DNA of 52,565 nucleotides from assembly GCA_903871555.1 (NCBI GenBank), contig CAIQHM010000002.1:1-52565 (forward strand), given 5' to 3'. The stretch comes from an uncultured Actinomycetes bacterium (GTDB taxonomy: Bacteria > Actinomycetota > Actinomycetes > Nanopelagicales > Nanopelagicaceae). Under the pieces are notes generated by a model. The model saw only the letters and a list, made by a program, of their open reading frames with translations. It ran no database searches and was not told the DNA's origin. Position 1 is the stretch's first letter. Each line of letters opens with the position of its first letter. Made by a program: the position numbers and the translations under genes. Shown here in pieces: positions 51 through 52,565 of this stretch.

Positions 51-121
51 AGCGGGTGACCGGGATCGAACCGGCATGGCCAGCTTGGAAGGCTGGGGCT
101 CTACCATTGAGCTACACCCGC
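51..121 (-). tRNA. tRNA-Gly (anticodon TCC)
   Basis: Reverse complement GCGGGTGTAGCTCAATGGTAGAGCCCCAGCCTTCCAAGCTGGCCATGCCGGTTCGATCCCGGTCACCCGCT folds as a tRNA; anticodon loop CTTCCAA, T-arm GGTTCGATCC. Confidence 0.95.
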
Positions 122-1924: not shown

Positions 1925-2000
1925 CGGGGCGTAGCGTAGTGGCTAGCGCGCCTGCTTTGGGAGCAGGAGACCGGAGGTTCGAATCCTCTCGCCCCGACCA
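1925..2000 (+). tRNA. tRNA-Pro (anticodon TGG), encoded CCA end
   Basis: CGGGGCGTAGCGTAGTGGCTAGCGCGCCTGCTTTGGGAGCAGGAGACCGGAGGTTCGAATCCTCTCGCCCCGACCA; anticodon loop TTTGGGA. Confidence 0.95.
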
Positions 2001-49339: not shown

Positions 49340-50172
49340 CGCAGAAACTTAAAGATGCAACTATCCCAACGATTCCAATTGGGGCTCGAATCCAACGTTG
49401 GATTGGCCGCAACTTAATTCGAATTTATGCAATTTTTGCATTTACATATCTATTTATTCCAGTTGCTTACACCTTCGCATTTTCATTTAATGATTCCGGG
49501 AAAAGCAACTTGATTTGGAAGGGTTTCACTCTTGGAAATTGGCAGAATCCTTGCGGAGCTCCTGAAGTCTGTTCAGCACTCGGAAACTCAATCAAGATTG
49601 GCTTCCTAGCCACATTCTTTGCAACTATTTTAGGAACAATGATTGCATTCGCAATCGGCCGACATAAGTTCAGGGGCCGTTCAACTTCAAACTTATTAAT
49701 TTTCCTTCCAATGGCAACTCCAGAAATCGTGATGGGCGCATCACTTCTTTCACTCTTCTTAGTATTCAAAATCAATCCGGGCTTCTGGCCAACGGTTATT
49801 GCACATATTGTTTTCTGTATCTCTTTCGTTGTTGTAACAGTTAAGGCTCGCATCGCAAGTCTTGATCCACGACTCGAACAAGCGGCAATGGATTTATATG
49901 CAAATGAATTCGAAACCTTTAGACGAGTAACACTTCCACTTGTTGCACCAGGTATTGCTGGTGCAGCGCTTCTGGCCTTCAGTCTCTCATTTGATGATTT
50001 CATTATTACCAACTTCAATTCCGGAACGCTAACTACATTCCCTAAATTTATTTATGTATCAGCAGCACGCGGCATTCCAGCGCAAGCGAATGTAATTGGA
50101 TCAGCAATGTTCTTCCTGGCCCTGACACTTGTTATCGTGGGGCAACTAGTAAACCGCCGGAAGGTGCGCTAA
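49336..50172 (+). CDS. potC: Spermidine/putrescine ABC transporter permease (PotC type)
   Basis: EQAAMDLYANEFETFRRVTLPLVAPGIAGAALLAFSLSFDDFIITNF. Confidence 0.92.
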   Translation: MTQKLKDATIPTIPIGARIQRWIGRNLIRIYAIFAFTYLFIPVAYTFAFSFNDSGKSNLIWKGFTLGNWQNPCGAPEVCSALGNSIKIGFLATFFATILGTMIAFAIGRHKFRGRSTSNLLIFLPMATPEIVMGASLLSLFLVFKINPGFWPTVIAHIVFCISFVVVTVKARIASLDPRLEQAAMDLYANEFETFRRVTLPLVAPGIAGAALLAFSLSFDDFIITNFNSGTLTTFPKFIYVSAARGIPAQANVIGSAMFFLALTLVIVGQLVNRRKVR

Positions 50173-50185
50173 ACTTTTAACGTTT

Positions 50186-50302
50186 CCATGGTGAATAACA
50201 GAACTGCAAGTAGTTCTGCGTCATGGGGTAGGACTCCGGAGGACCCGGGCCAACTTTAAGTAGTGATTGAAGGGGTGATCCCGGTTTCGGCCGGATTACG
50301 CG
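50186..50302 (+). promoter_or_regulatory. Candidate structured cis-regulatory RNA with two tandem similar modules upstream of the FAD oxidase gene
   Basis: Direct repeat: AAGTAGT-N10-GGGGT-N6-CCGG-N5-CCGG (50208-50248) and AAGTAGT-N7-GGGGT-N4-CCGG-N6-CCGG (50258-50294). Each AAGTAGT sits in a hairpin ACT-NYAAGT-AGT. Confidence 0.5.
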
Positions 50303-51715
50303 ATGGCTAACATCGACTCCTCCTATTTAAAACATCTATCGCACATGCAACCACATTTGTATTGGCTTGATGCTGACCCATTGGAACCAGAAGTTCATCC
50401 AACACTTATTGGTGAGACAACAACTGATCTCTGCATCGTAGGCGCTGGTTACACCGGTCTTTGGACTGCGCTCTTAGCTAAAGAGGCGAATCCTGAACGC
50501 AATGTAATTATTATTGAACAACTTGAAACTGGCGCTGGTGCATCTGGTCGTAATGGTGGTTTTTGCAGTTACTCGCTAACTCACGGATTCATGAATGGTT
50601 ACAGTCGCTTTAAAGACGAGATGGCGATCATTGAACGTTTGGGCCGCGAAAATCTTGAGGGTATTGAGGCAACAATTAAGAAGTACAAAATTGATTGTGA
50701 CTTTGAATTAACTGGCGAGATCAGCGTTGCAAATGAAGAGTGGCAGATGGAAGGCATCATTGAAGAGGCCAATCTACGAAATTCATTTGGCGACAGCGTT
50801 GAAGTTCTAAGTAAAGAGGAGATGCAATCTCGAGTTAATTCTCCGCTATCAGTTGGGGGACTTTGGGATCCAGATGGAACCGCGCTCGTCGATCCAGCTC
50901 GACTTGTTTGGGGGCTAGAGCAAGCGTGTATTGCGAATGGTGTTCAGATTTACGAGAACACAAGTGCGCTTCGGCTCGAGCGAACAAGCAAGGGAATAAT
51001 TGTTCATACGCCTTACGGAACTGTATATGCGCAAAAGGTTGCGCTGGCTACCAATATTTATCGTTCACTAGTTAGACAAGCGAAAAAGTATGTAGTTCCT
51101 GTTTATGATTTCCAATTAGTAACTGAACCACTTACGCCAGCACAAATGGAATCAATTGGGTGGAAGAATCGTGAAGGTTTATCTGAGGCGGGAAATCAAT
51201 TCCACTATTACCGCCTGACTAAAGATAATGAAATTTTGTGGGGTGGATACGATGCAATCTATAACTTCCGCGGCAAGGTTCGTCACGAGTATGAGAGCAG
51301 TGCTGAAACATATGCGCATTTAGCGCAAGCATTTCTTGAAACTTTTCCGCAATTAAAAGGAATCAAATTTACCCATGGTTGGGGCGGCGCAATTGACACT
51401 TGCTCTCGCTTCACCCAATTCTGGGGTCAGGCGCATCGTGGTCGAGTCGCGTATGTAATGGGATATACCGGACTTGGTGTCGGCGCTTCGCGTTTTGGCG
51501 CTCAAGTAATGTTGGATCTACTTGATGGTGAAGATAATGAGCGGACTCAACTAAGTATGGTTCGAAAGAAACCGTTGCCATTCCCACCAGAACCATTTAA
51601 GTTTATTTTCATTCGCTTAACACAATGGTCAATTAATAAATCAGATCAGAATCAAGGCAAGCGAAATCTCTGGCTAAAGCTCCTGGATACTCTTGGACTG
51701 GGCTTCGACTCTTAA
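50303..51715 (+). CDS. FAD-dependent oxidoreductase (DAO family), possible gamma-glutamylputrescine oxidase-like
   Basis: DLCIVGAGYTGLWTALLAKE Rossmann motif, GASGRNGGF, C-terminal GYTGLGVGASRFGAQ; genomic context with potDABC. Confidence 0.85.
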   Translation: MANIDSSYLKHLSHMQPHLYWLDADPLEPEVHPTLIGETTTDLCIVGAGYTGLWTALLAKEANPERNVIIIEQLETGAGASGRNGGFCSYSLTHGFMNGYSRFKDEMAIIERLGRENLEGIEATIKKYKIDCDFELTGEISVANEEWQMEGIIEEANLRNSFGDSVEVLSKEEMQSRVNSPLSVGGLWDPDGTALVDPARLVWGLEQACIANGVQIYENTSALRLERTSKGIIVHTPYGTVYAQKVALATNIYRSLVRQAKKYVVPVYDFQLVTEPLTPAQMESIGWKNREGLSEAGNQFHYYRLTKDNEILWGGYDAIYNFRGKVRHEYESSAETYAHLAQAFLETFPQLKGIKFTHGWGGAIDTCSRFTQFWGQAHRGRVAYVMGYTGLGVGASRFGAQVMLDLLDGEDNERTQLSMVRKKPLPFPPEPFKFIFIRLTQWSINKSDQNQGKRNLWLKLLDTLGLGFDS

Positions 51716-51716
51716 G

Positions 51717-52565
51717 TTAAAGGCTTGCAAAAGCTTCATCGATAATTCCAAGCGCCTCATTTAATAAGTGCTCGGGCATTACCAACGGTGGCAATAAGCG
51801 AATCACATTTGAATAAGTTCCTGCGCTAAGAATCAAGACGCCTTTCTGTTGGCAATACTTAATTACGGCGCTCATCGCTTCGCTATTTGGTTCGATAGTT
51901 CCGGGTTTGATTAATTCAATAGCCTGCATTGCGCCGGCACCACGAATTTCACCAATTACTGAATATTTCTTCGCCATTGTTTGCAGCGCATCAACCATAA
52001 TTTTTCCAATTACATTTGCGCGATCAACGAGCTTCTCTTCTTCAATTGTTGCAAGGGCCCCAAGTGCAGCAGCACAAGCAACTGGGTTACCACCGAAGGT
52101 TCCACCAAGACCACTTGCATGAACCGAATCAAGCATTTCAGCGCGACCAGTTACGCCAGCAAGAGGAAAACCACCAGCGATTCCTTTTGCAGTAGTAATT
52201 AAATCGGCATCAACATTCTCATGTTCAACAGCAAACATTTTGCCGGTACGACCAAAGCCTGTTTGAACTTCATCGGCAACAAAGACAATGCCATTTTCCT
52301 TAGCAAATTTAGCTAGACCAGGCAAGAAACCTTTTGGTGGAACGATAAATCCACCTTCACCTTGAATTGGTTCAATAACTATTGCGGCGACATTCTTGGC
52401 GCCAATCTCTTTCTCAATTTTATGTGTGACAACGTCCAGAGTTTCAGTTGCACATGTTGCTGCATCGCCATTAAATCTAAATGGATAGGCCATCGGCATT
52501 CGATAAATTTCGCTCGCAAAAGGTCCGAAGCCCTCTTTGTAAGGCATATTCTTGGCGGTCATTGC
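51717..52565 (-). CDS. gabT: 4-aminobutyrate (or putrescine/diamine) aminotransferase, 5' end beyond window
   Basis: Class III aminotransferase: AAIVIEPIQGEGGFIVPPKGFLPGL, FVADEVQTGFGRTGKMFA, ITTAKGIAGGFPLAGVTGRAEM; reading frame stays open to the window edge. Confidence 0.9.
   Translation of the reverse strand, partial: AMTAKNMPYKEGFGPFASEIYRMPMAYPFRFNGDAATCATETLDVVTHKIEKEIGAKNVAAIVIEPIQGEGGFIVPPKGFLPGLAKFAKENGIVFVADEVQTGFGRTGKMFAVEHENVDADLITTAKGIAGGFPLAGVTGRAEMLDSVHASGLGGTFGGNPVACAAALGALATIEEEKLVDRANVIGKIMVDALQTMAKKYSVIGEIRGAGAMQAIELIKPGTIEPNSEAMSAVIKYCQQKGVLILSAGTYSNVIRLLPPLVMPEHLLNEALGIIDEAFASL

Follow-up and report, generated by a model that had tools for sequence, protein, structure and literature searches.

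The 130-nt gap between potC and a gene for an FAD-dependent amine oxidase, within the 52,565-nt stretch of an uncultured Nanopelagicaceae genome analyzed here (the window), appears to contain a conserved cis-regulatory 5' leader, and a riboswitch of an undescribed class is the reading of it that we favor, although only with modest confidence. The gap, which had already been pointed out by a sequence-only reading of this DNA, occupies positions 50173-50302, between the potC stop codon (50170-50172) and the oxidase ATG at 50303. It was also described as GC-rich, and its GC content is indeed above that of the window (51.5% versus 45.1%), but the enrichment is only mild. The leader is about 120 nt long, beginning just 3' of a -10-like box (from about 50186) and ending at the oxidase start codon (50303-50305). 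In 5' to 3' order it consists of P1, an A-rich bulge, P2, P3 around a core, a variable linker, a Shine-Dalgarno sequence (SD), P5, and the AUG, as follows.

50170-50175, plus strand: -10-like box TAAACT, overlapping the potC stop codon
50186-50193 with 50219-50226, plus strand: P1, with covariation
50194-50198, plus strand: A-rich bulge
50199-50204 with 50213-50218, plus strand: P2 hairpin, with covariation
50227-50232 with 50250-50255, plus strand: P3, with compensatory variation, enclosing the core
50235-50249, plus strand: core UCCGGAGGACCCGGG, identical in 76 of 78 distinct sequences
50236-50239 with 50245-50248, plus strand: P4, predicted hairpin within the core, without compensatory change
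50256-50271, plus strand: linker, variable in sequence and length in alignment A3 (see below), containing most of the second AAGTAGT
50272-50280, plus strand: extended Shine-Dalgarno GGGGUGAUC (GGGGUGA), complementary to the 16S rRNA 3' end
50281-50285 with 50290-50294, plus strand: P5 hairpin, between the SD and the AUG
50303-51715, plus strand: FAD-dependent amine oxidase of 470 aa (Pfam DAO, 3.6e-56), the gene preceded by the RNA leader

The best NCBIfam hits of the oxidase lay far below the cut-off. Genes adjoining it encode a polyamine importer, an aminobutyraldehyde dehydrogenase, and a GABA transaminase, which suggests polyamine-to-GABA catabolism as the pathway of the neighboring genes. 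The GABA transaminase gene (51717-52565, minus strand) is convergent with the oxidase gene and runs off the end of the window. Judging from its relatives in Nanopelagicales and freshwater Actinomycetota, the bacterium would belong to the acI lineage.

For a first set, relatives were found by DNA search, the leaders of orthologues were listed, and 18 of them were aligned with MAFFT without a structural model. In this alignment, 11 pairs had changed on both sides, a number reached by none of 500 shuffles. A larger alignment, A3, consists of 78 distinct sequences fitted to a covariance model, which biases its pair counts in favor of the structure; here both sides had changed in 17 of 28 pairs, and the covariation score was 0.372, compared with 0.167 after shuffling and no more than 0.105 when the structure was slid. 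In P1 and P2, 12 of 14 pairs showed changes on both sides, with 96-97% of cells paired across the 78 sequences, and G.U wobbles outnumbered A.C mismatches by 125 cells to 24, which identifies the plus strand as the RNA. P3 is compensated in forms such as GGUGGU/ACCACU, GGGCGU/AUGCCC, and GGUUGA/UCAACU, with one position unpaired in many members. P5 is paired in 100% of cells, its CCGG arms being replaced by the compensated CCAG/CUGG in homologue L121 and its fifth pair occurring in four pair types. The pairing of P4 is predicted rather than proven, because the core is nearly invariant, varying in P4 in one sequence, and offers no compensatory change. RNAalifold chose a long-range pairing of the CCGG arms, which was discarded: with C or U in column 122, as in 16 of 78 sequences, its outer U-A pair disappears, and L121 has a local P5. 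P1-P2 and P3 are backed by compensatory changes, and the gap holds a genuine structured RNA with a single structure. A conserved and covarying RNA upstream of orthologues was the check that the sequence-only reading had proposed, and this is what was found.

The covariance model of the leader (R1) was run on 296 genomes of the order and matched 133 of them, in 10 of 17 genera. Strong matches (E <=1.5e-11) were present in 118 genomes, and the other 15 were weak and proved to be remnants wherever inspected. In every fetched strong match with the gene on the contig, the leader lies directly 5' of the oxidase AUG, and within the window's genus, the oxidase and an R1 match co-occur in the same 17 of 27 genomes (15 full-length leaders and two remnants). 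Moreover, several genera lacking potC upstream have kept the leader with the oxidase, next to other upstream genes, some of them on the opposite strand. Elsewhere in the phylum, R1 found no credible copy, the weak matches in 397 genomes (E 0.001-0.09) being no more than expected by chance, and the best of those outside the order lies inside a coding sequence on the other strand.

In the inspected leaders that extend far enough upstream, those not preceded by potC among them, a TAnnnT box is located 7-12 nt 5' of P1, in variants such as TATAAT, TATGAT, TAACCT, and TAAACT, among others. Since the TA of the window's box doubles as part of the stop codon, the independent support for the box comes from the genera without potC. 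The leader RNA therefore probably has its own promoter, with transcription predicted to start near 50180-50185. Because the leader stays with the oxidase where potC is missing, and is probably transcribed from a promoter of its own, it is an element of the oxidase gene rather than of a gap within the pot operon.

Downstream of the linker, GGGGUGAUC is complementary to the 16S rRNA 3' end GGATCACCTCC, which was found in five genomes of the family; in the assembly of the window itself, a search for the 16S 3' end gave nothing. The distance from the first G of GGUG to the AUG is 26-32 nt (about 29), and it is mostly 9-15 nt after subtraction of the hairpin, so that an over-long SD-AUG distance is shortened by a conserved hairpin. 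A hairpin between SD and AUG is described as raising translation of the T4 genes 38 and 25, where it reduces the distance from 22 to 5 and from 27 to 11 nt, respectively (PMC3014915). The leader resembles these phage genes in its shortening from about 29 to 9-15 nt, and it differs from them in belonging to chromosomal genes of two actinobacterial classes, in having a structured domain upstream, and in that its effect on translation is a prediction (PMC3014915).

The second of these classes came from orthologues of the oxidase, 60-72% identical, in one family, whose assignment to the class Acidimicrobiia rests on two members, L045 and L046. Their leaders have a different upstream structure and the same layout of SD, hairpin, and AUG. 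Stems of the type GGYCGG..CCGGC and UUCGCG..CGCGAA precede the orthologous oxidase in L045, L046, L156, and L201-L224 (e.g., L045:2303-2400). P5 arms are CCAACC/GGUUGG, CCAGCC/GGCUGG, and others in place of CCGG, and the SD-AUG geometry is alike in these leaders and in leaders of the window's order with or without P1-P4, while the arms change; six Acidimicrobiia leaders were left out by the geometry script, and their hairpin is readable by eye. Covariation is weaker in the model built for this group (R2), with 6 of 17 pairs. Of 296 genomes of the class, R2 matched 8, and its 6 strong matches were all in one genus. R2 aligns only weakly with the window's family, mainly through the SD-P5 part. 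Rfam gave no match to the leaders L045 and L046, and the Acidimicrobiia leader may be regarded as another orphan RNA candidate. Two weak R2 matches (L231 and L232) were set aside as having no oxidase nearby.

P1-P4 have been lost in two lineages. In two members of the window's genus (L027 and L029), everything from the end of potC through P4 is lost, and the SD, P5, and AUG are kept. In these loci (upstream of 3001 and 2989, respectively), potC ends within the SD, at a UGA about 27 nt upstream of the oxidase AUG. In another genus (g39), P1-P4 are absent from 13 fetched loci (L135-L147), which keep the -10-like box, the SD, and P5. Three further loci of that genus (L148-L150) still bear P1-P4, yet already have the altered SD GAGGUGA. 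The upstream and output parts thus look separable, and the losses are compatible with loss of a sensor from its output element, as well as with loss of any dispensable upstream structure.

With a conserved, covarying structured domain in the 5' leader, a riboswitch is the reading that we prefer. The oxidase mRNA would carry P1-P4 at its 5' end as a sensor, and control would be exerted on translation. In the on state, P4 and P5 would both be formed, leaving the SD free and bringing it near the AUG. In the off state, the core strand CCGGA..ACCC (50236-50246) would pair with the SD and the 5' arm of P5 (GGGU..CCGG, 50273-50284), and this helix would hide the SD and open P4 and P5. Such a pairing is the predicted minimum in two homologues (L097 and L125), and it can be drawn in all members, mostly as the less stable fold: when forced in 77 sequences, it fell short of the stability of the P4-P5 fold by a median 4.8 kcal/mol (range -7.3 to +14). 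The off helix shows no covariation of its own because its strands are invariant or palindromic, and part of the pairing comes free because CCGG is self-complementary; the core-SD/P5 switch is proposed as a possible fold. A strand of L045 complementary to its own SD and P5 was considered as compensation for the off helix and rejected, as it falls in a variable loop of the other Acidimicrobiia leaders. The ligand might be putrescine or spermidine, or else a product further down the pathway, such as GABA, which is a guess from gene context only. Several observations count against the preferred reading. In most cases the fold of a single sequence is not clearly more stable than its shuffles, P1-P4 are missing from some genomes that have the oxidase, and the leader has a single target gene type, while many riboswitch classes control several genes. 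The full picture would be a new riboswitch class that senses a metabolite of polyamine catabolism and switches translation via an SD-bridging hairpin; in Acidimicrobiia, another structured domain, unrelated to the first, would act on this output element before the orthologous gene. As a whole, it must be considered doubtful.

The single target gene would suit a binding site in P1-P4 for a protein, such as an autoregulating enzyme or an RNA-binding regulator, controlling translation in place of a small molecule, and so would the very rigid core with its exposed AGGAC loop. No candidate protein came to light, however, and protein sites usually need less sequence than a three-stem structure this invariant, and we consider this explanation rather unlikely. 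Another explanation dispenses with sensing, the leader being a constitutive element for translation or stability, either as a 5'-terminal structure protecting the mRNA or as a ribosome standby site via the core GGAGG, combined with the SD-bridging hairpin. The core GGAGG is complementary to the anti-SD, the on fold is the more stable one in most members, and P5 resembles the translation-raising arrangement of T4 genes 38 and 25 (PMC3014915). Such an element would leave unexplained both the invariance of the CCGG arms and their flanks and the loss of P1-P4 with SD-P5 kept, and it seems to us an unlikely account of the whole leader.

The gap had originally drawn attention as a tandem duplication, in which the same series of blocks would form two aptamers or protein-binding modules. 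AAGTAGT, GGGGT (near 50225-50229 and at 50272-50276), and CCGG..CCGG do each occur twice in the same order in the window, but the repeat as such is not conserved. Of 78 distinct leaders, 3 have AAGTAGT at both places, two of these three being near relatives, and 4 have its linker copy; when the gap was shuffled by mononucleotides, some 7-mer repeat arose in 29% of the shuffles. The first AAGTAGT falls in the variable loop and arm of P2 and the second in the variable linker; its recurrence is coincidence. The first GGGGT spans the junction between the end of P1 and the start of P3, and the second is the Shine-Dalgarno. The hairpin CAGAACT..AGTTCTG (50199-50218) corresponds to P2, and both CCGG hairpins exist (50236-50248, P4; 50281-50294, P5), but their contexts differ, P4 being enclosed by P3 and nearly invariant and P5 varying with compensation. 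With halves that differ in structure, a duplicated aptamer module is highly improbable; P1, P3, the -10-like box, and the SD had been overlooked. Least probable of all, and scarcely credible, is an attenuator with an upstream peptide, for which the window offers a frame of 23 codons (ATG at 50188 to TAA at 50257-50259), as many homologues have no start codon (CCATAACG, CCACAACG) and P1 covaries there instead.

As for the novelty of the leader, the earlier statement that it does not match the glycine, guanidine, ykkC, ydaO, SAM, or TPP riboswitches is supported by the lack of any match in Rfam 15. Searches of the window region with E up to 10 returned two chance-level hits only, on the other strand, and searches of seven loci, including five divergent members, with E up to 1 returned a single tRNA only. 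At gathering scores, the only matches in the whole window were two tRNA genes (51-121, minus strand; 1925-1997, plus strand). No report of the element was found in the open-access literature searched, a scope with subscription papers and preprints mostly outside it and with two discovery surveys covered by keyword. Within this scope, the leader can be put forward as a candidate for a new orphan riboswitch. It resembles other orphan candidates in being a 5' leader with covarying stems, an invariant core, one metabolic gene type, and an SD reachable by alternative pairing, and it differs in having no Rfam 15 family match and in being restricted to one order among the genomes searched. The spermidine riboswitch, a SAM-I variant that precedes polyamine biosynthesis genes and acts by terminating transcription (PMC10853860), has polyamine metabolism in common with the leader, which differs from it in lacking an Rfam SAM-I match, in its architecture, and in its predicted catabolic gene (PMC10853860). 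The potE and odc1 motifs occur at genes for a putrescine-ornithine antiporter or for ornithine decarboxylase, with the potE motif in Veillonella (PMC8632094); they are candidate RNAs at polyamine genes, like the leader, and by that description are set apart from it by gene context (PMC8632094).

The acI bacteria are among the most abundant freshwater bacteria (PMC5301498), and polyamine consumption has been predicted for them (PMC5574706). The leader, compact and with a near-invariant core, provides a concrete and testable candidate for metabolite sensing in their small genomes, for which natural relatives without the putative sensor can serve as controls. Moreover, the layout of SD, hairpin, and AUG, with its arms swapped over two classes, offers a natural test of a translation mechanism described for phage genes.
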